A stretch of 39,369 nt of DNA from a virus, in IMG/VR virus record IMGVR_UViG_3300048833_000051, positions 1-39,369 of that record; one strand, 5' to 3'. Each line of letters begins with the position of its first letter. Positions within the stretch are counted from its first letter, which is position 1. Under the pieces are notes generated by a model. It was not told where the DNA came from. It saw only the letters and a list, made by a program, of their open reading frames with translations, and searched no databases. Of this stretch, positions 1-39,369 are shown in pieces. A program made the translations under genes and the position numbers.

Positions 1-127
1 TGTGCAGCACCGGATAGCGCCAGTACGCCTGTTCCTGTGCGTCCTGAAGGAAGCTGGTCAGCAATGCCTCCATGCCGGGCGGGTAGCCCTGCGCCGCATA
101 GCCCAAGCGCGTCAGCAGCTCAAGTTT
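1..127. repeat. Terminal direct repeat (left copy), assembly overlap
   Basis: Bases 1-127 are identical to 39243-39369 (offset 39242). The repeat lies inside one open reading frame that continues without interruption across the join. A length of exactly 127 is the usual largest k-mer of short-read assemblers, so I read this as the closing overlap of a circular contig and not as a biological terminal repeat. The genome unit is then 39,242 bp. Confidence 0.93.
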
Positions 128-24608: not shown

Positions 24609-24817
24609 CCGCCCTGTCCGACGCGAGGGAGTACCTGAAAACCGTGTCCGTTGACTCATACCGTTACGATCACCCGATCCAGTTACTACACCGGATTGTG
24701 GCCGAGATTGAAGCTGCGCCCAAGGTCAAAGTACGCGGCAAGGTTGGCGAGCTGGCGACGATCCATGTCTCCCATTCGCTCGTCGGCCAAACCGTCCGGC
24801 TGCTGGGGGATGGTTAG
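24605..24817 (+). CDS. Hypothetical protein, 70 aa, last gene of the rightward operon
   Basis: A 70-residue protein with a helical N-terminus and a beta-rich C-terminus (KVRGKVGELATIHVSHSLVG). Its TAG stop overlaps the TAA stop of the convergent tailspike gene (24814-24817), so no terminator separates the two operons. Function unknown. Confidence 0.62.
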   Translation: MTALSDAREYLKTVSVDSYRYDHPIQLLHRIVAEIEAAPKVKVRGKVGELATIHVSHSLVGQTVRLLGDG

Positions 24818-26556
24818 GTTCCCATTGACGGAATGGTCAACGTTCCGCTGCCTACAGATTGTGGGCCGAGCGACTCCATGACCAGCGTGACGCTGGCGAT
24901 ATAAACGTCCCCCGCCGCTGTATCAGCTCCGTCCGTCCCCATGCGCTGAATTGCGAGCATTAGAATCCCATCGTTCGGGATCGTAATCGGAGATGCAAAG
25001 GCAATGTTTGCAATGAAGTTGCGATCTGCCGTATTGGATGGAACTGCCACGGTCTGCGTGGTCTGCGTCGGAACACCAACAACCGCGCCACTGGTCTGCG
25101 CGCCAGCATTGAAGTGGGTTCGGAACACGACCGCCGTGCCAACCCCGGGCGCACCAGTGAACGAATAGCTGATGATGACGCGAGTGGCCCGTGCGTTGCG
25201 CCAGCTTTTCGGCACTCGCCTGGCTGTGGCGATGGCCTCATTTGCAGCGGCGTCCAACGTCCAGCAAGGCAGAACGCTGGCAAGATTCAGCACGGTGGAC
25301 CCAGCGCCAAGCGCAGACTGGTTGAAGTCGTTGGGCGTGAAGGTCAATTCATCGGACAACAGGAACCGGTTTGTCTGCCACATGCCGGCGTTGATGTAGT
25401 CCACAATCCCCTGCAAGTGGTACTGGCCGGAGCCGGTAATACTGGTCGTTTCAGACGACGTTGCGCCAATCACGTTGCCGAATGTGTTGGTGTCGAAGAA
25501 CGCAGCACCGCCCGCCCAAAACAGGAAGAAGTTGATGCGCGGCACCGCGACGCCTGCGATCAGGGCAAGGTTGCGCCCCGTCCCCGTTACGGCCCCGCCC
25601 GCGTAGTAGACGATGGCATTGTCCACGTCCGACTCAAAGCGCAGGTTGTCGCCGTTGACCGTTTCGGCAAACGACATGAAGATGCGCTGCTGCGGGTTTC
25701 CTGCGCTTGTACCTTGCGTGCCGATGATCCACAAGCCATGCGACCCTGCCGTTGAACCATCGACGCCAGCGATATAGCAGTTCCGGATTTCATTGAACGA
25801 ACTGAGCGTGGCGTTGGCATCGTCCAGCCGCATGCCAGCCAAGCGGCAACGGAACTCAGACACGTCCAATTTCCAGCGTGACAACGACGACCCGTGGAAG
25901 CCGTAGGAGGGGTACCCCTGGCCCTGCAATTGGATGCCGGTGAACTCACCTTGGATCAGCACGTCCCCCGAAACTGCCGCAATCACGCGCACCATTGGCT
26001 TGTCTGCCATCGCTGCAGATGCAATGAGCTGCGTCATGGCGCGACCCGTGCCGGGGGCGTTGTTGGTAGGTATGTCCCCCGTTCCATCGCCGAACACGGC
26101 AATCGGCGTGCTGATCGTCAACGTGTCACTGACGACGTAGCTTCCTCGCGGAATATACAAACGGCAGTTGGTCGCGTTCCCGTTCGCTGTGGTGACGGAT
26201 TGCACATAATTGATGGCCGCCTGAATCGCCACCGTGTCGTCCGTCACGCCGTCACCCGTAGCGCCGAAGTCCTTGACGGATACCGTATCGCGAAGCCTGT
26301 CCTGCACCGTGCGAAGAACAGCGCCGGCTCCCGCCTGCAGGAAGCGAGCGTTACTCCCGTTCGGCACCCCAATCAGTTGATTGATCGCATAGGTAAGCGA
26401 TGCTGTATCTGCGGAGTTCTCAACCCCTACATACTCCTGCACCGCCTCCATGGCATCCTCAATGTCCTGATGCCGATCATGGTGTTTGACCGCTACCGCT
26501 TGATTGCGCGGGACGGGGCCGTACTGGTCAAGCGACGTGGGGAAGTTCGTGGTCAT
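24814..26556 (-). CDS. Tailspike with pectate-lyase-type beta-helix, probable depolymerase
   Basis: A 580-residue protein. The N-terminal 90 residues are a head/tail-binding type domain (VKHHDRHQDIEDAMEAVQEY). Residues 92-115 (VSVKDFGATGDGVTDDTVAI) are the hallmark of Pectate_lyase_3 / tailspike beta-helices, followed by about 300 residues of Gly/Asn/Thr-rich parallel beta-helix, and a C-terminal region likely to trimerise. Such spikes bind and often cleave surface polysaccharide. AGGAG lies six bases before the ATG. It is the last gene of the leftward unit. Catalytic residues cannot be assigned from sequence alone. Confidence 0.88.
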   Translation of the reverse strand: MTTNFPTSLDQYGPVPRNQAVAVKHHDRHQDIEDAMEAVQEYVGVENSADTASLTYAINQLIGVPNGSNARFLQAGAGAVLRTVQDRLRDTVSVKDFGATGDGVTDDTVAIQAAINYVQSVTTANGNATNCRLYIPRGSYVVSDTLTISTPIAVFGDGTGDIPTNNAPGTGRAMTQLIASAAMADKPMVRVIAAVSGDVLIQGEFTGIQLQGQGYPSYGFHGSSLSRWKLDVSEFRCRLAGMRLDDANATLSSFNEIRNCYIAGVDGSTAGSHGLWIIGTQGTSAGNPQQRIFMSFAETVNGDNLRFESDVDNAIVYYAGGAVTGTGRNLALIAGVAVPRINFFLFWAGGAAFFDTNTFGNVIGATSSETTSITGSGQYHLQGIVDYINAGMWQTNRFLLSDELTFTPNDFNQSALGAGSTVLNLASVLPCWTLDAAANEAIATARRVPKSWRNARATRVIISYSFTGAPGVGTAVVFRTHFNAGAQTSGAVVGVPTQTTQTVAVPSNTADRNFIANIAFASPITIPNDGILMLAIQRMGTDGADTAAGDVYIASVTLVMESLGPQSVGSGTLTIPSMGT

Positions 26557-27730: not shown

Positions 27731-28437
27731 ACTGCCTCCAAAAGTAAAGCAAACCACGTCACAGTTGTTGCAGAATTGACAACAACTGACAAGGCGTCAT
27801 TTTGCGTGATTGTGGTCGACGTCCAGCCCGCATAAGTGCCAGACGCGGACAAGCCGCCAACAACCGCAGGTTCATTGCCACCGCACATGGAATCACCAGG
27901 GCCAGGAGGAAGTGTTCCGAATGTCGTGCGCCGAACATCCACCTCAACCGAACCGGATGGCGAACACCACAAGTACCAGTTACCGGTCAGCGTGTAGTCG
28001 GATGCGGACAGCCCGCCAACCGCATCGCCTCCAATCAATGCGGAGCCACTGAATGAGCCGCCCGTGACCGTGATGCCTCGCGGCTTCCCGCCGGATGCAG
28101 ACAAGTCGATATCCCCAGCAACCCCGTCACCATTGGTAATGGTGACGCTGCCGTCCGTGCTGACGATCTCGCGCACCGCACTTGTACCGGGCCCGGTCAG
28201 CACGTAGACGCCTGTACCACCCTGCGCTGCCAAGGTCGCAAGGTTCGGTGCTAGGGCGGAGGTTGTGCTGCCTGCCGGTGTCGACGGGTTGAGGACGCTG
28301 GAATACGGAACCAGCGTGCCGTCCGGCGCATAGACGTTCTTCCCAAAGGTCGCGCCTTCCGTGGCATCCGGGTCGATGGACACCTGCACTGGACGGCCAG
28401 CGGTGCGGTAGGCGGATAGGGTGATCTTGGTGCCCAT
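27727..28437 (-). CDS. Fibre-like tail protein, 236 aa
   Basis: A 236-residue, Gly/Ser/Thr/Val-rich protein with short beta-type repeats (SDYTLTGNWYLWCSPSGSVE; GYVLTGPG-like turns; TITNGDGVAGDIDLSASGG). The N-terminal 60 residues (GTKITLSAYRTAGRPVQVSI) look like a virion-anchoring domain. It is coupled to the giant protein upstream by a TAATG junction and to the low-GC fibre-like gene downstream. Likely a tail fibre or fibre base. Confidence 0.75.
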   Translation of the reverse strand: MGTKITLSAYRTAGRPVQVSIDPDATEGATFGKNVYAPDGTLVPYSSVLNPSTPAGSTTSALAPNLATLAAQGGTGVYVLTGPGTSAVREIVSTDGSVTITNGDGVAGDIDLSASGGKPRGITVTGGSFSGSALIGGDAVGGLSASDYTLTGNWYLWCSPSGSVEVDVRRTTFGTLPPGPGDSMCGGNEPAVVGGLSASGTYAGWTSTTITQNDALSVVVNSATTVTWFALLLEAV

Positions 28438-31400
28438 TACTGCTCCGCGTTGTTCTTGCCCTCTTCGGCCTCTTCGGGCCTTGGGGCTTCTTTGGGCTTG
28501 CGGTACTGGACGCCCATGCCAAGCAATCCAAGCAGCGTGATCGCAGCGCCGCGAGAGACGCCTTGCTCCTCCATGACGTCAGCGATGTTGCCCATGGACA
28601 TTGGCGTCACCAGCGAGAGCGCCGTATTGCCGGGGGTCGCCGGCTCGCCAATCATGTTTTGTCCGGCGAGCGTGTTCACGATTGCGCCAGGAACCGGGGC
28701 CAGCTTCGACCGCAGGAAGCGGAACAGCACGCTTGCGCCGTCGCCAGAGCCGAATGGCAGCCGCCCGTCCTTGGAGAGCTTATGCGGCGTCACGTCTTGA
28801 CCCATGGCACCACGCAAGTCTGTCAGCGTGTAATTGGCGCGCAGCGGCTTGACGCCTTTCGTCGTGACCGTTTCGCCCGTGACCATGCGGCCAAGGAAGG
28901 TGGTGACCTGCGCCAACCCAGCCAGCGGATCAAGGAAGGTGTTGCCGAAGCGCACCTTCCCGAAATCAGCGGAGCGTGGGTCCCATGTAATTGTCGGGGT
29001 CTCGTCGTCGTCGTCCCTCATCATCGCCGCCAGCGTGATGGCGATACCGACACCCGTCAGGAATCGCGCATATTCCTTTACGATCATGCTACGGGTGCGG
29101 TTCGTTCCACCATAGAGCGGCTGGCCGGCAAGCAACTGGAAGCGCGAGGCCACAAGGCGCGGAGCGAAGAACACCGTATTCAGCACTTCGCCCGCATTGT
29201 TGGAGGAGCCAACCTTGCCGCGACCGGTGGCCACGTTGATGTAGTTGGCAATCGCAGCGCCCTCCTCCTTGGTCGGGTTGCTCCCATCCTTGGCCAGCGC
29301 GGCCACCATGGCATCGAAGCTGTCCGCACGGAGGCGGTTCAGCATGACGGTATAAGACCGGCCAGAGCCGCGCACGATACCGCCGCCAACAAGTGCCGGT
29401 AGCTTGTTCAGCCAGCGCGTTGCGTATGCCTCCTCGACCTTGGACAGTGGCCCCGATCCGATCCCGGTCAGCTCCAGCCCGAACTTCTTGTAGAGCGGCG
29501 CATTGGGGCGGTTTTTGATCTCCTCGTTGGCCTCAAACTCTGCCTTCTCAGAGACAAACGCCTTGAGCGAGGCCGGCACCGACTTGGCGGCGCGCACCGG
29601 ATGGCCGAACGATATGAATCCGCCCTGACGGAGCAGCCCGGAAAGGTCGACGCTCGTCATGTAGGCGCGGGCAAGGTTGACCGCATCCCGAGTTCCGCCA
29701 AGAACCTTCTGGAGCGGGGTGCGCCTCTCCATTTCCGCCTCAAACCGCAGTCGCTCAAACTCTTCCTTGACCTTCTCCAGCTCGTAAGCCGCCCGCTTGT
29801 TGGCGTCGTCCAGCTCACGCGGAACCCGCTTGACCTTCTCAAAGTCGCCGGACGCAATGCGCTTTTCAAGCTCTTCGATCCGCCGCTGTATGCCTCGGCC
29901 TCGCTGCTCCTGATACCGGGCCTCCGGGTCCACCGGCTTCTTGTCGATGGCTCGTATTTCGTCGCGCAACGCGTCACGCTTGGCAATCAGTGCCTGCACC
30001 TCAGCAGACGGGATTGGCTTTGCCCGTGGAGACGGCCTTTCTCCCGTGTCGATCTGCTTCTGCAAATCCTCAATCTGGTTGTTAAGGTTCCGGATGCGCG
30101 CATCGTTGTAGCTGGCAAGCTGCTCTGGCGTCTTGGCCGACTTGACTAGGGTTTTCAGCAGCTCGTTCAGGCGCGTGCGCTTCTCCCGGATTTCTTGGAT
30201 GTCCTTGTCGCGCTGCGGACCTGACTTGAGAGCGGGCTGCCCGGATTCCAGTCGGGTGATGCTTTCCTGAAGTTGCACCAATGACCGGAGCCGACGCAGC
30301 TCAACCTTCACCTCATCCTTGCTCGGGAACGTAGCCTTTCCGTACTCGGAAAACAGGACGCGAACCTCCCTCTCTGTCAGGTCGGGGAAGTTCTTTTGCA
30401 GGGAGGCCGTCACCGCCGCCATGACCGGACCTTCGCCGCGCAGACCGGCCCGTATATGGGCCTCGGCCAGCTTGCGCACGTCCTGCGTGGTCGGCGCGTC
30501 GCCCAACTCGGAGACAATGGAATCTACAGACTGGCCCTGCCCCAAGCTCTCGGCGGTCAGCACCTTGGACGCCCGGAATACTTCGGGCAGCATCTCGCGG
30601 AACTCATCGAACCGCTCAGACAGCGCCGTTTTCATGCGTGCGGTCCAGTCGACCAGCGTTACCGCACCATTGGCGAACTCGTAGGCTCCGATTCTGGCGA
30701 GATGGTAGAACGCCGCCGGATTGATTGCCGCGCCGGACTGTCCTTTACGCCTCGGAACGCTCTCCACGGCAGCCAGCGCGGCACGCGACTCGTTCGCGGC
30801 CTCACGGAGACGGCTCAACGTCGGACGCTTGCGTGCGCCCTTCGCGGCCTGCTGCATGGCCCTCACAAGGTCGTCGTAGGTCGTCGCTGACTGCGCCTCG
30901 GCAAGCTGGGCATTGGCTGCTTCCAGCTTCTCCTGCGCCTTGGCAAGCTTCTCGTGCAACGCCTTGATCTCGGCGGTCTGCTCCTGCGTCAACGGCTCGC
31001 CCGTCACGGCCCGAAGCTTGCGCTCCATCGCCTCAAGGCTGAAATCCTCGCGCAGCATCCGCTGGCGGAATTGGCCCAGCCTACCCCATTCCCGGCCTGA
31101 CGCATAACTGGCTTCGTCGATGGCGCTTATTTCGGATTCTGTGCGCTCCCACTCGCGCTGCGCCACAGCCTTGGCAGGTTCAGTAGCCTCGGGGTCAGAC
31201 AAGGTGTCGGCGGCCTTGTTGCGCTCGTTCATCAGCTTGCGCTTGTGCACCATCAGGACAGCTTCGTCCTCCAGCGAGATGGCGCTCACTCCATCGCTGC
31301 GTAGGCGTTCGACCACTTCAGCGCCACGCGTCGGACTATCTGCCAACGACTGGATGGCCTCATCCACCGTGGACTGATTCGACTTGCGGGCATCGCGGAT

Positions 31401-33545
31401 GATTGGATCACGACCAGCCTCGGCGCGCTCGGCGTCCATCACGGCATTCTTGGTGCCGGTGGACTTGGGCGGCTGCACACTGGCAGGCTCTATACGCGCC
31501 TGCTGCTGTTCTACCTCTTGGGTAGTATCAACTGCGCCTTCACCGGCTTCTTGCCTTCCTTCTCCAGCCGCTCTATCACTTGCGACGGGCTGGGCAGTCC
31601 GGTCGGTGCGGAGTCCTGCGGCCCTGCGGGCCTCTTTGTCTCGGTATTGGGCACTTTCTGCCTCCTGAATGGTGGGGCCGGCTCCGTAGGAGAACCCTAC
31701 CCCGTTCTGTTCCACGACCGTCCCATCTTCCAACGTAACTCGGAGGACAGAATCGGCCAACCTCTGGCGCACGGCCTGCATGGCAGCGTCCAGTTGTTCA
31801 GGCGTGTCCGCCTGCATCACATATTCGTCGCCGCCCCGGTGGAACACGTTGCCGTCGCCAAGCTGCTCGGCGAACAGGCTGCCCATCTGGCGGATCACAT
31901 CATCCCCGACCTCATGCCCCAGCCGGTCATTCACGGCCTTGAAGTTGTCGGCATCCGCGAAGGCTTGCACGGGCTTCAGTTGCCCAGAGGCTTCCGCTTC
32001 GGTGCGAGCCTCCATGTTCTGCACGCCTAGGATGCGTCGGCCCGCGACACGGGCGGTCAGTCGGTCGCGCTCGGCTAAATCCAGAAGCTCGGCGGATTGC
32101 TCCGGAGTGATCGACCCCTCTCGGCGCAGAGTCCGCAGCTCGCCCATGCGCGCCGCTTCGATTTCGTCGGCGCGGCGGGTCGGCGCTTCCATTTCAATTG
32201 CAGGAGCGGCCTCAATCGCCGGTCCTGTCTCGGGACGGAGGAGCGCAACCGCAGCCAAGGCGGCATCTAGGTCAGCCGTGTCCTCGCGAGGAATGTCGAT
32301 GGGCATAGGCTCAACAAGCGCTGCTTGTACGGGTGCGACGGCAGGGACCGGCGCGGGACGAGTCGCCTCCGGCCCCCGCTCGCCGCGTAGATCAAGTGTT
32401 TGGGCAATCTGCTCGGGAGTGACTTCAGGAACGAGATCGGCGTAGGAGTCACCAAGGGGGCGGGGCGCGCCGCGAGACTCCAGCGCAGCGATGGTCGCGC
32501 CTGGAAGGCCGCCAGCCGCCACACCCTGCAACCCCGCTTCCGCCGCATTGGCAAGGTCGATCTGACGCCCCAGCGCAACATCACCCGCGACGCTCTGGCC
32601 CGCTTCTTCGATGCCCTCAAACGGAGCATCTGCCACGAAGCCGCCGAACATGGCGCGCAACAGGTTGGACGCCTGCTGTCCCTGTCCTGCCGACGCTGCG
32701 CCACCCGCGCCGCCCGTCAAAGCGGTGAGCGGAGCCAGCATGGTAAATGCTTTCTTGGAGGCAAGGTCAGCCTCCGCCTCGGATGCGCCTTCGGCCAGCG
32801 CCTGCATGCGCACATCTTCCGCGCCAGTCGGAGCAACCATTGCCGCATTTGCTCCGCCATACCCAACGGCAGCGGCAAGGCGTGGCGATTTGGTCAGTAC
32901 GCTGTCCGCAAGCTTTCGCAGGCTCCCGCCGCCAGCCAACAGCAACGGGATTTGTGGGGCGCTCTGCGTGAGCGAACCAAGCACAGACTCTGCAGACGGA
33001 AGGCCTACGCCCTCAATGCCGCCTTCGGCATCGCGCCGCACAATCGGAACCGCCTGCTCGCTGCGGTAGGCTTGCGGCTTCAGGGTTTCCAGGTAGTCGC
33101 GTGACCCTTGGATATCCGCCTTGGCAGTCGGGGTCAGCAGGGATTCACCACCGCCAAACAGCCAGCCGAGAGTATCCGCAAGCCCCTCTGGAACGCGGGT
33201 CAGTCCCTGCAGAAGATCAACACCCGCACCCTTGACCGTCTCGCCTATCGTGGTTTCGCGGGCAGCATCGCCGAAGTCGAATGACTCGCCATTCCATCGA
33301 CGTGGACGGCCAGCGGCGTCGGTATAGATCATGCCGGCGCGCCGATCCTCTGGACGTAGCGGGATCGTGGTTCCAGGCGCAACTGCGCCGGCACTAGGCA
33401 CAAGGTCATCAAACATCCCAGTCTTGGCGGGCTGCTTGTTGGCAGGAACGTAAAATGACGGATCATCCAGCCAAGCATCCGCGCCACCACTTTTAGATGG
33501 TGTTGGTTTCTTGTATAGGGCCGGATCATCAAGCCAGTCAGCCAC
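28437..33545 (-). CDS. Giant (1,702 aa) virion/ejection-type protein with a GGDEF diguanylate-cyclase-like domain
   Basis: The largest protein of the phage, starting at GTG 33545. (1) Residues 3-31: two copies of a short motif, WLDDPALY and WLDDPSFY. (2) About 90-370: Ala/Gly-rich helical region with hydrophobic stretches. (3) About 500-640: GGDEF domain, with FADADNFKAVNDRLGHEVGD, then RGGDEY (570-575) and a matching C-terminal YRDKEARRAAGLR; the usual inhibitory RxxD site is absent. (4) About 700-1290: long charged coiled-coil sequence. (5) About 1290-1650: a helical domain (AYMTSVDLSGLLRQGGFISF) with a hydrophobic stretch near 1495, resembling domains of large phage polyvalent-type proteins. 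Position after three internal-virion-type genes suggests that it is packaged and ejected. Synthesis of cyclic di-GMP is possible but unproven. Confidence 0.85.
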   Translation of the reverse strand: MADWLDDPALYKKPTPSKSGGADAWLDDPSFYVPANKQPAKTGMFDDLVPSAGAVAPGTTIPLRPEDRRAGMIYTDAAGRPRRWNGESFDFGDAARETTIGETVKGAGVDLLQGLTRVPEGLADTLGWLFGGGESLLTPTAKADIQGSRDYLETLKPQAYRSEQAVPIVRRDAEGGIEGVGLPSAESVLGSLTQSAPQIPLLLAGGGSLRKLADSVLTKSPRLAAAVGYGGANAAMVAPTGAEDVRMQALAEGASEAEADLASKKAFTMLAPLTALTGGAGGAASAGQGQQASNLLRAMFGGFVADAPFEGIEEAGQSVAGDVALGRQIDLANAAEAGLQGVAAGGLPGATIAALESRGAPRPLGDSYADLVPEVTPEQIAQTLDLRGERGPEATRPAPVPAVAPVQAALVEPMPIDIPREDTADLDAALAAVALLRPETGPAIEAAPAIEMEAPTRRADEIEAARMGELRTLRREGSITPEQSAELLDLAERDRLTARVAGRRILGVQNMEARTEAEASGQLKPVQAFADADNFKAVNDRLGHEVGDDVIRQMGSLFAEQLGDGNVFHRGGDEYVMQADTPEQLDAAMQAVRQRLADSVLRVTLEDGTVVEQNGVGFSYGAGPTIQEAESAQYRDKEARRAAGLRTDRTAQPVASDRAAGEGRQEAGEGAVDTTQEVEQQQARIEPASVQPPKSTGTKNAVMDAERAEAGRDPIIRDARKSNQSTVDEAIQSLADSPTRGAEVVERLRSDGVSAISLEDEAVLMVHKRKLMNERNKAADTLSDPEATEPAKAVAQREWERTESEISAIDEASYASGREWGRLGQFRQRMLREDFSLEAMERKLRAVTGEPLTQEQTAEIKALHEKLAKAQEKLEAANAQLAEAQSATTYDDLVRAMQQAAKGARKRPTLSRLREAANESRAALAAVESVPRRKGQSGAAINPAAFYHLARIGAYEFANGAVTLVDWTARMKTALSERFDEFREMLPEVFRASKVLTAESLGQGQSVDSIVSELGDAPTTQDVRKLAEAHIRAGLRGEGPVMAAVTASLQKNFPDLTEREVRVLFSEYGKATFPSKDEVKVELRRLRSLVQLQESITRLESGQPALKSGPQRDKDIQEIREKRTRLNELLKTLVKSAKTPEQLASYNDARIRNLNNQIEDLQKQIDTGERPSPRAKPIPSAEVQALIAKRDALRDEIRAIDKKPVDPEARYQEQRGRGIQRRIEELEKRIASGDFEKVKRVPRELDDANKRAAYELEKVKEEFERLRFEAEMERRTPLQKVLGGTRDAVNLARAYMTSVDLSGLLRQGGFISFGHPVRAAKSVPASLKAFVSEKAEFEANEEIKNRPNAPLYKKFGLELTGIGSGPLSKVEEAYATRWLNKLPALVGGGIVRGSGRSYTVMLNRLRADSFDAMVAALAKDGSNPTKEEGAAIANYINVATGRGKVGSSNNAGEVLNTVFFAPRLVASRFQLLAGQPLYGGTNRTRSMIVKEYARFLTGVGIAITLAAMMRDDDDETPTITWDPRSADFGKVRFGNTFLDPLAGLAQVTTFLGRMVTGETVTTKGVKPLRANYTLTDLRGAMGQDVTPHKLSKDGRLPFGSGDGASVLFRFLRSKLAPVPGAIVNTLAGQNMIGEPATPGNTALSLVTPMSMGNIADVMEEQGVSRGAAITLLGLLGMGVQYRKPKEAPRPEEAEEGKNNAEQ

Positions 33546-35178: not shown

Positions 35179-35798
35179 TAGGTTCCGCCTCCGTATCCGG
35201 CTTGATAGCCCTGTGGCTGGTAGAGAGTGTTGTAGATCGACTTCTGCGCCCTACGCTCCTCGTCCTGCTTGACCGAGTTGCTGTAGATGTCGCCGAAGCT
35301 GGAGAACAAGCTGCCCAGCGAACCCTCGCGGGCATCCGCCTTAGCGCCGGACAGGTTGTTGCGCAATGCCTGCGCGGCATTGGTGGAGGCTGTTGTCATA
35401 TCTAGGCCAGACTGTGCCATGGCCAGAAGCTGCTGCTTGGATTGCTGGTCTGCCGAACGCAGGGCTGCCGCGCTGCTCTGCGCCCGCCGGTCTGCCTCAA
35501 GGATGCCGCGCTGGTAGGTTTCCGCCAGCCGGCGATTGGTGTCTGCGTCATACGAGCCGCCCGTGTTGCCCGTGCGGGCCAAGGCGAATTGCAGGCTTCG
35601 GGCTGCATCCCCCTGCTGACGATTGGCGTCGTCGCGGTAATACCCTCGCGTTGCCTCAAGGAAATCCGCAATGTCTGCTTCACGCTGCGGCGCAGCAAAT
35701 ACGCCTTCGATGCGCTGCTGTGTTGCGTTGATCTGCGCTTGACGCTCGCGTTCGGCCTGTTCGGCTTGTGCGGTTGCGTTGCCTCCACTACTGCCCAC
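35178..35798 (-). CDS. Probable internal virion protein, 206 aa
   Basis: A 206-residue, Ala/Gln/Arg-rich, helical protein (QAEQAERERQAQINATQQRI; LAETYQRGILEADRRAQSSA) ending in a Gly/Tyr/Gln tail. The start is GTG 35798, six bases after AGGAGG. It overlaps the GNAT-like gene by 11 bases and the next gene by one. Composition and place match podovirus internal core or ejection proteins. No enzymatic motif. Confidence 0.7.
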   Translation of the reverse strand: MGSSGGNATAQAEQAERERQAQINATQQRIEGVFAAPQREADIADFLEATRGYYRDDANRQQGDAARSLQFALARTGNTGGSYDADTNRRLAETYQRGILEADRRAQSSAAALRSADQQSKQQLLAMAQSGLDMTTASTNAAQALRNNLSGAKADAREGSLGSLFSSFGDIYSNSVKQDEERRAQKSIYNTLYQPQGYQAGYGGGT

Positions 35799-36318
35799 AA
35801 TGAACCTCCTCTAGGATGGTTCGCGGGACGAAGCGCGAGTACGTGATCGCATTTTCACCCCTTACCCCGTAGCCGCGCAAGACCCCCTCACGCTCCAGCT
35901 TCAACCCCTTTTCGTACCAGCGGCACGTCTGCTCGCGGCTTTCCAGTACCAGCGTTTCCAGCCGCGTGGCCCCATCCTCAATCAGACAGTCCATGACAAA
36001 CCGGGTCGCCTCGGTGATTGACCGCCAGTGCGCACTCCACGTATCCATCGTTCCGCACATCCATGACCGCCAGACGTTCCCGTGCAAGCGCACGTATCCG
36101 CCCGCCACGATGGGCGCACCGTCCGGCCCAAGCAGGGTGAACTTCACCCCCGGCAGGCCGTAGAACATGTGCGCCGCCTGCTCAAAATCCCATCCGTCAA
36201 CCTCATGGAAGGCAAGGTACTGCTCAATCTCGTCTGGACGCATGTTCGCGCACAGCACGATCAGCTCGCGCAGGGTGGGGCGGGCGAGTGTCCACTTCTT
36301 GCGGAGTGCTTCACTCAT
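35788..36318 (-). CDS. GNAT-fold protein, T7 gp13/DUF2833-like, 176 aa
   Basis: A 176-residue protein. The pattern HMFYGLPGVKFTLLGPDGAP, GGYVRLHGNVWRSWM, then RLETLVLESREQTCRWYEKG and a last strand (GENAITYSRF) follows the GNAT acetyltransferase fold as found in T7 gp13 (DUF2833), a protein encoded just before the T7 internal virion proteins and needed for virion assembly. Same order here. ATG 36318 forms an ATGA overlap with the gp10-like gene. An obvious acetyl-CoA loop (Q/RxxGxG/A) is missing, so it may be a structural or chaperone version. Confidence 0.75.
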   Translation of the reverse strand: MSEALRKKWTLARPTLRELIVLCANMRPDEIEQYLAFHEVDGWDFEQAAHMFYGLPGVKFTLLGPDGAPIVAGGYVRLHGNVWRSWMCGTMDTWSAHWRSITEATRFVMDCLIEDGATRLETLVLESREQTCRWYEKGLKLEREGVLRGYGVRGENAITYSRFVPRTILEEVHCGQ

Positions 36319-37625
36319 GCGGTGGGCCTCTGGTCTTGGATAAACAGGTTGGCGGACAGCAGCTCCCACCGCTCGGCAGCACCCTGATAGGTCACGCGCA
36401 GCGAGTACGAGGGAGCGGTCAGCGGGAAGGGGATGATGTGCCCCGGCTGCGTATCTGCCGGCAGGGCATACGGGGTGGTGAATGCGGTGACGTTGGTTTG
36501 GTCGTAGCCGATGGATGCCAGTGGCGTACCCGTGGACACCAAGTCCATGCCCACCATCATCTTGTTGACCCCCGGCTGGCCCATGTCCAGCCATGGCCAT
36601 TGCACGAAGCCATTGACCGGCGTCGCGTCATCCAATCCAGTGCTTTCGTCGACGAGATAGATCGTATCGCCGGAGCGCAGGTACAGTTCGCCGTCCTGCT
36701 GGGCCACGTAATCCACCGCATCAGCGAACACGTACCGGCTCCATGCGCCAATTCCGCCAAGACGGGACTGTGAATAGACGTACACCTGCGCGCCGAACGC
36801 GAGCCAGTACTGTCCTGCAGCAGGGTAGAAGAATCCAAGCGGATCGGAGCTGGGAAGCAGCGGCTGGATCAGGCTGTCCACAGGCGTACCCACATCGCCG
36901 GCCTGCAGGTTCGTGGAGCCGCCTGCAATCGAAACGGAGCGCACGCCCAGCCGGGTCAGGAAGTACAGATCACCCGACACCGATGCATGGGCGCGGTAGA
37001 AGTTCGACCCAATGGAGGGAATGTTGTCCAGCAACGCCATGCGGCCCGGGTCAGGGTCAACCTGCCACACCTGCATCTCGCCAGACGACCAGACCGTCAT
37101 GTTGCCGCGATACAGGCCCAACGCCTGCACGATGGGGTCAACCTGCGCCTGCAAGCCCGTAGGCAGGAAGCCGGCGTTATCCTGCGTTGACCAGTCCATC
37201 GGGTTGGAGGTGGCCGAATAGCGCACCACGTCCCGCGAAGCGGCGAACACCTTGGAGGCTGCGATGATGACCTGCTTGGTATTCGGGCAGCGGGGGTCGG
37301 TCACCTGGTAGGTCGTCGCCGTCCATGTAATGCTGCCGTCCACGACGGTGCCACCCATGGTGGCCGGGAATACCGGCTCCGTCGCCCCGCTCTTGTAGAT
37401 CGGCACCGCCTCCCATGTGATCGACGTCGCGGTCACCGCCTCCCACGTCACCGCGCCATCGACCACTGTGTTGCCGGCGATCAGCGGCCAGCTTGGCTCG
37501 GCAGTACCCGTGCGGTCGGTAGGAACCTGCACGGCCTGATAGACAAACCCGTTCGGCAGCGTGGGGGCGATCACCTGGCCGGTGGAGGTCAGGATGCCGG
37601 GTGCCCATATCGCGACTATCGCCAT
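36315..37625 (-). CDS. P22 gp10-like tail hub/DNA-stabilisation protein
   Basis: A 436-residue beta-rich protein. The central part (MTVWSSGEMQVWQVDPDPGR; GSNFYRAHASVSGDLYFLTR) shows the repeating beta-strand pattern of the gp10-type beta-propeller that forms the nozzle of short tails and holds packaged DNA in. The N-terminal 110 residues are extra, Thr/Val/Trp-rich, and contain a repeated motif (VVDGAVTWEAVTA / VVDGSITWTATTY), i.e. two similar strands-and-turn units. Neighbours are the tail adaptor and internal proteins, the P22/T7-type order. ATG overlaps the preceding stop (TAATG). Confidence 0.8.
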   Translation of the reverse strand: MAIVAIWAPGILTSTGQVIAPTLPNGFVYQAVQVPTDRTGTAEPSWPLIAGNTVVDGAVTWEAVTATSITWEAVPIYKSGATEPVFPATMGGTVVDGSITWTATTYQVTDPRCPNTKQVIIAASKVFAASRDVVRYSATSNPMDWSTQDNAGFLPTGLQAQVDPIVQALGLYRGNMTVWSSGEMQVWQVDPDPGRMALLDNIPSIGSNFYRAHASVSGDLYFLTRLGVRSVSIAGGSTNLQAGDVGTPVDSLIQPLLPSSDPLGFFYPAAGQYWLAFGAQVYVYSQSRLGGIGAWSRYVFADAVDYVAQQDGELYLRSGDTIYLVDESTGLDDATPVNGFVQWPWLDMGQPGVNKMMVGMDLVSTGTPLASIGYDQTNVTAFTTPYALPADTQPGHIIPFPLTAPSYSLRVTYQGAAERWELLSANLFIQDQRPTA

Positions 37626-38730: not shown

Positions 38731-39369
38731 TCAACCTCCGGGGACTTGTCGAATGGGGAGCGGAAGCCCGACACGCGGACTCTCGCCGGGAATGTAACGC
38801 TTCGTGTAGTGAGTGCCTGCTGCCATACGGCCAATCAGGATTTCAACCTCGCGGTCATAGCGCCCCGCGTCCGGCTGGCCGTAGTGGGCCTTGGCATTGG
38901 CCAGCGCGGCAAGGAACACCACGCGGGAGTCGATGGTGGTTCGGTCATCATCTTCCTCAAACGGCATCAAGCCAATGTGGCCCTTCAGCCAGATGACGTA
39001 GCTCGCCTTGTCCGGGGCTGGCCAGATTTCCAGCGACTCGCGCAACTCGTAGTACTGCGGCAGGCTGTTCATGGTCTGGTTGAACAACAGCGGATTGATG
39101 CCGGCCACCAGCGGGAACCACGCGTCATCATCTTGCAGGCCCGCCCACGTCACGCGACGGAAGTTCAGATACTTCGTGCAATCAATCGGAACATCGTAGA
39201 ACCGCTGTCCGATCTGCGTCTGCCACGGGAACCACTTCTCCGTGTGCAGCACCGGATAGCGCCAGTACGCCTGTTCCTGTGCGTCCTGAAGGAAGCTGGT
39301 CAGCAATGCCTCCATGCCGGGCGGGTAGCCCTGCGCCGCATAGCCCAAGCGCGTCAGCAGCTCAAGTTT
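38731..39369 (-). CDS. Tail adaptor/head-completion-like protein, C-terminal part (gene spans contig ends)
   Basis: The 3' part of the 393-residue protein whose start is at 670 (bases 39243-39369 repeat 1-127). This half (about residues 185-393) holds LLTRLGYAAQGYPPGMEALL, a helical stretch AQEQAYWRYPVLHTEKWFPW, then beta strands and a C-terminal helix (LAALANAKAHYGQPDAGRYD), the pattern of gp4-type short-tail adaptors. An apparent shorter start (TTG at 39348) is an artefact of the contig cut. Neighbours are head genes on one side and tail nozzle genes on the other. Confidence 0.75.
   Translation of the reverse strand, partial: KLELLTRLGYAAQGYPPGMEALLTSFLQDAQEQAYWRYPVLHTEKWFPWQTQIGQRFYDVPIDCTKYLNFRRVTWAGLQDDDAWFPLVAGINPLLFNQTMNSLPQYYELRESLEIWPAPDKASYVIWLKGHIGLMPFEEDDDRTTIDSRVVFLAALANAKAHYGQPDAGRYDREVEILIGRMAAGTHYTKRYIPGESPRVGLPLPIRQVPGG
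39243..39369. repeat. Terminal direct repeat (right copy), assembly overlap
   Basis: Identical to bases 1-127. Removing either copy closes the circle and restores the reading frame of the tail adaptor gene. Confidence 0.93.

Follow-up and report, generated by a model that had tools for sequence, protein, structure and literature searches.

Giant polyvalent proteins of phages, which are predicted to be injected into the host together with the DNA and which carry exchangeable effector modules, have been reported to include GGDEF domains, for example in a giant prophage protein of Acetonema longum; the proposed role of these domains is the alteration of, or conflict over, nucleotide signalling, including interference with host nucleotide responses, and a peptidase of the HExxxH form has also been described for such proteins (Iyer et al., 2017, PMC5512222). 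The virion RNA polymerase of phage N4 offers a comparison by mode of action, with an N-terminal injection part, a central enzyme and a C-terminal encapsidation part (PMC5512222). GGDEF genes are also annotated in Yuavirus and Vojvodinavirus, and the hyperbiofilm phenotype of Bordetella LK3 lysogens has been discussed in that light (PMC8471281). In the case of N4, production of the receptor in Escherichia coli is controlled by the c-di-GMP of the host (PMC8669472). The literature searched yielded no experiment in which an ejected GGDEF domain had been tested.

The protein described here is encoded in IMG/VR record IMGVR_UViG_3300048833_000051, all 39,369 nucleotides of which were analysed and are referred to below as the window. 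Like the polyvalent proteins, it is a giant phage protein with a GGDEF domain and is predicted to be injected with the DNA, and giants related to it bear HExxH/HExxxH peptidase motifs; unlike them, it combines the GGDEF domain only with an unassigned C-terminal carrier region, the LPD38 domain being undetected. It can be compared with the N4 polymerase by mode of action, with no sequence relation shown, and carries a different enzyme. The sequence-only reading of this locus was unsure whether such a fusion had been described; it has, and since GGDEF domains in phage polyvalent proteins were reported in 2017 (PMC5512222), the kind is already known. The phage-restricted GGDEF lineage and its swapping between carriers, in contrast, look new.

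The giant protein and its genomic setting

An exact direct repeat of 127 bases is present at the ends of the window (1-127 = 39243-39369), so the genome is probably complete. Among the products encoded in the window are a terminase and a major capsid protein of podophage type (NF033394, 258 bits), and there is a portal match. Further genes encode a DnaB helicase, a YqaJ exonuclease, a primosomal protein and an HNH product; no integrase turned up in the open reading frames that were scanned. Among named phages, the capsid protein has remote relatives, in one Rhizobium and one Microcystis phage (28% identity).

The 1,702-residue giant protein is encoded on the minus strand (28437..33545), with a GTG start and, directly 5′ of it, a plausible ribosome-binding site, AAGGA. 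Within the virion gene block, its gene is the final large one ahead of the tail-spike region, the position of podophage ejection proteins, which makes the product a candidate ejection or polyvalent protein. The tail spike gene follows downstream (24814..26556, minus strand; Pfam Pect-lyase_RHGA_epim, E 1.2e-16, and PHROG tail spike matches). Of the three internal-virion-type genes that the sequence-only reading had placed upstream, what stands is one weak match, a possible internal virion protein in the same cassette (35788..36600, minus strand; phrog_308 E 2e-4, phrog_4177 E 9e-9), whereas the three genes adjoining the giant gene gave no family match. Weak homologues of the 35788..36600 product adjoin loci with related capsid proteins (L017-L019), and in one capsid-related phage (L018/L072), in whose record no GGDEF domain was found, a 1,018-residue protein occupies the slot before the tail-fibre gene.

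The N-terminal region of the giant protein (residues 1-460; 32166..33545, minus strand) consists of repeated WLDDPxxY segments followed by an Ala/Gly-rich stretch, and a family search with it returned zero matches. The repeats, at 33365-33545, have a counterpart in a repeated DHDPFA segment of the giant encoded by locus L030; both are possibly packaging tags. Two predicted helices (residues 462-492; 32070..32162, minus strand; AlphaFold secondary structure) lead into the GGDEF domain, and the second of them is conserved in the alignment of relatives.

The GGDEF domain itself (residues 493-640; 31626..32069, minus strand) is real, far beyond chance. It had been placed from the letters at about residues 500-640, and Pfam PF00990 matches residues 493-640 with E 1.7e-10 and 41.3 bits, above the curated cut-off of 23.8, while TIGR00254 matches with E 4.6e-13 and 49.2 bits (cut-off 37.4); phmmer retrieved from the PDB the solved diguanylate cyclases SadC (4wxo), TpbB, DosC and PleD. 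AlphaFold, run on residues 462-660 together with four relatives, gave a model of this segment with the GGDEF fold (pLDDT 88.3, pTM 0.81), and all Foldseek matches of this model listed from the PDB were GGDEF or GGDEF-containing proteins. In VIA-align, the model superimposes on DgcR (6zxb) with Z 15.9 and 1.9 Å over 135 residues, and on GTP-alpha-S-bound DosC with Z 15.5. The profile searches and the structural comparison with known cyclases thus both bear out the initial assignment, and a chance motif is ruled out by the Pfam, NCBIfam, PDB and fold evidence.

Residues kept and altered in the active site

Three motifs lie where the sequence-only reading had located them, all on the minus strand: the DADNFKAVNDRLGH segment (residues 531-544; 31914..31955), the RGGDEY signature (570-575; 31821..31838) and the C-terminal Y-x-x-K-x-x-R at 634-640, extended by one further Arg to residue 641 (31623..31646). 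The first of these contributes the metal-binding Asp531, the phosphate-binding F535/K536 and the guanine-binding Asn539, and the last provides basic phosphate-binding positions in a lineage-specific D-K-x-x-R form; these roles are assigned from established knowledge of PleD-type cyclases. Over the GGDEF domain, the identity of four close relatives with the window sequence is only 50-55%, and in the alignment of all five members the D, D, F, K, N and D of the first segment are invariant, as are, over the entire domain, Asp531, F535/K536, Asn539, Asp548, Asp573/Glu574, K637 and R640. The metal, guanine and phosphate residues of a diguanylate cyclase are accordingly present: the GG(D/E)E(F/Y) signature reads GGDEY (571-575), Asp531 is the first metal ligand, and guanine recognition falls to Asn539 and Asp548. 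Because the base-recognition position is Asn, guanine is the predicted base.

Other positions depart from the canon. The first Gly of the signature is Ser in two of the five members (SGDEF; L003 and L006), the N-terminal DxLTGLxN is altered in the window domain to R-x-I-x-G-V-Q-N, with G and N retained, and YxAKxxGRN is replaced by (Y)xDKxxRxxxGLR, with the C-terminal K/R motif shifted relative to canonical cyclases. The canonical DxLTGLxN is usual in diguanylate cyclases, although not shown to be obligatory. The R-x-x-D product-inhibition site, sought in the sequence and the alignment at the I-site position upstream of GGDEF, is absent, as had been claimed. Given the altered DxLTGLxN and the shifted C-terminal motif, activity could be lost; judging from residue conservation and the predicted fold, the domain is likely to be catalytically competent. 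Bacterial diguanylate cyclases (DosC, PleD, DgcR, TpbB) share the fold and the active-site residues of the window domain but are only ~20-25% identical to it, are sensor-linked and usually possess the canonical DxLTGLxN and YxAKxxGRN.

A phage lineage of GGDEF domains and its carriers

The four close relatives were found in IMG/VR searches (L002, L003, L004 and L006), and further viral scans added zero new close members, the proteins recovered (L075-L078) being of the canonical GGDEF type. In three of the four (L002-L004), the domain resides within phrog_1145 proteins, which belong to the ejection cassette of epsilon15/YA3-type podophages and are flanked on one side by an internal protein of the lysozyme or transglycosylase type (phrog_992/1044) and on the other by a structural protein of the virion (phrog_684); the cassette was assigned by family scans for L002 and L003 and by layout and homology for L004. 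This cassette is common to epsilon15-like phages (phiV10, SPN1S) and Pseudomonas phage YA3, and the window carrier region belongs to a different family. The YA3 homologue (640 residues) retains the N-terminal region and the C-terminal end and lacks GGDEF, which identifies the GGDEF domain as a module in a variable slot. The fourth relative is a 2,347-residue protein combining GGDEF, RadC and LPD38 (L006:6399-13439). In the L002 protein (L002:6816-9791), GGDEF is followed by ~280 additional residues that include a HEVEEQ stretch, and this extra part may be a second module occupying the slot.

In a tree of 48 domains, with one Yuavirus representative and bacterial rows mainly from Pseudomonadota, the five members form a single phage-only clade (support 98/99), to which the solo GGDEF protein of the Yuavirus is sister (96/88). 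The latter (L034:5959-6429), 156 residues long, has the C-terminal DKxxR...GLR segment of the ejection-protein lineage but is free-standing and retains DPLTGVLN; its gene lies apart from the virion gene block, with exonuclease and antirestriction genes in its vicinity. A close bacterial origin of the domain was considered and rejected: the five phage members score 317-340 bits against their HMM and the best sampled bacterial protein ~57. The phage alignment found 0 matches in 398 Pseudomonadota genomes at E <= 1e-16 and a bacterial maximum of ~57 bits in 150 genomes at E <= 1e-9, the bacterial sampling covering one phylum plus a few others. BFVD includes a viral protein, A0A516M277, that is 1,143 residues long or longer and contains a domain 30% identical to that of the window. 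Matches in genome contigs (L007-L011) were discarded as phage members because they are bacterial proteins, L007 being a PAS-GGDEF-EAL protein, and a fecal GenBank record labelled 'Bacteriophage sp.' (L037:6888-8522) encodes an ordinary sensor-type diguanylate cyclase and is probably bacterial DNA.

The C-terminal carrier region (residues 687-1681; 28503..31487, minus strand) also occurs in other phage giants, in which no GGDEF domain is found. When the last 371 residues of the giant protein were used as the query, five loci were recovered (L029-L033), four of which (L030-L033) encode giants of 1,985 to 2,991 residues, that of L032 being cut by the contig start. Residues 687-1681 of the window protein recur in these four, with 40-62% identity in the best segments; L031 and L033 give identical matches to the window and may be near-copies. 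The N-terminal parts differ among the carrier giants: that of L030 contains HEAVGH and HEIAGH motifs, recognised by eye and of the HExxxH peptidase form known from polyvalent proteins (PMC5512222), and sub-threshold acetyltransferase and ART-PolyVal matches, and that of L031 a sub-threshold ParB match, whereas none of the five carrier records, some of them fragments, yielded a GGDEF match. For the last ~400 residues, hhalign also finds a counterpart in a 1,583-residue protein of phage MW202497 (E 5e-18), which has a HELGH motif.

The LPD38 domain is found only in phage-type polyvalent proteins, in which it is not obligatory. Its presence at the C-terminus of the 1,702-residue protein is unsupported, with no Pfam match and no significant hhalign alignment to the LPD38 of L006; the predicted structure of the C-terminal domain is of low confidence (pLDDT 41). 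What is recognised in the protein is the GGDEF domain and the conserved carrier, with no second assigned module; with one module besides the carrier, and LPD38 undetected, the 'polyvalent' label is drawn from the relatives. From these sequence comparisons, the product is most likely a polyvalent-type ejection protein.

Enzyme, sensor or counter-defence

The favoured explanation, to which we assign a probability of roughly one half, is that the window encodes an effector GGDEF domain within an ejected polyvalent-type protein, and that this domain, as a homodimer, would convert 2 GTP to c-di-GMP. The C-terminal carrier region would place the giant protein in the virion head, which it would leave together with the DNA; the GGDEF domain would be an exchangeable effector that reaches the newly infected cell in this way, and its homodimer would there produce c-di-GMP, free of I-site feedback, before phage gene expression. 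Diguanylate cyclase activity requires a dimer. The sequence-only reading had already suggested that the protein is packaged and ejected, and context lends good support to a location in the virion or to ejection: the C-terminal half is shared with other giants, the GGDEF lineage occurs in an ejection cassette, and the capsid-related phage has its 1,018-residue protein in the slot before the tail-fibre gene. Packaging and ejection, like dimerisation, catalysis and product, are steps that we infer. Somewhat more tentatively, the lineage may represent phage-restricted diguanylate cyclases, distinct from the bacterial ones, that move as a cassette between unrelated ejection scaffolds and a solo early-type gene and deliver an immediate pulse of c-di-GMP prior to expression.

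Sensors with a degenerate GGDEF domain exist, FimX and LapD among them, and the change of DxLTGLxN, the displaced basic motif and the Ser in L003 and L006 would all be compatible with a domain that enters the virion and is ejected but has little or no catalytic activity, acting as a GTP- or c-di-GMP-binding sensor or as a structural element. We consider this unlikely, because metal and guanine-contact residues invariant in five ~50% identical proteins with different carriers would be unusual for a dead enzyme, and because the window domain lacks the I-site, the c-di-GMP binding site of many degenerate GGDEF receptors. Still less probable is that the enzyme works at a late stage, in the producer cell prior to lysis, and is present in the virion incidentally or not at all. 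The location of the giant gene in the late virion block does lead one to expect late expression, and in Yuavirus the related domain is encoded by a separate gene that lies apart from the virion block; against this, the domain recurs in different phages as part of ejection-protein scaffolds, not as a free-standing product of late operons.

An equally improbable alternative is that the domain makes or binds cyclic dinucleotides that blunt a host antiphage pathway (CBASS or similar) instead of changing lifestyle. It would fit the interference with nucleotide responses proposed by Iyer et al. (2017, PMC5512222), the fold that GGDEF domains have in common with the mCpol enzymes of defence (PMC12657218) and the location of the Yuavirus sister gene one gene away from an annotated antirestriction gene. 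However, no defence partner was identified for the window domain, and the base-recognition Asn predicts plain c-di-GMP. We know of few defence effectors that use this nucleotide.

Cyclic di-GMP is the bacterial signal for settling down, and under the effector explanation a push of the infected cell towards the sessile state would be one of several possible outcomes, with counter-signalling against host nucleotide defences standing equally beside it. The benefit to the phage may lie in an altered motility or envelope state, in interference with nucleotide-based defence of the host or in effects on a rival element. GGDEF domains in injected phage proteins have been a bioinformatic prediction since 2017, and the present lineage offers compact, well-folded, conserved domains of ~200 residues that are testable in vitro, as well as natural carriers with and without the GGDEF module for comparison. 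If the domain is delivered and active, the phage would set the main lifestyle second messenger of its host at the moment of entry, and infection would have a direct link to the regulation of biofilm, motility and the cell surface, or else to defence based on nucleotides.
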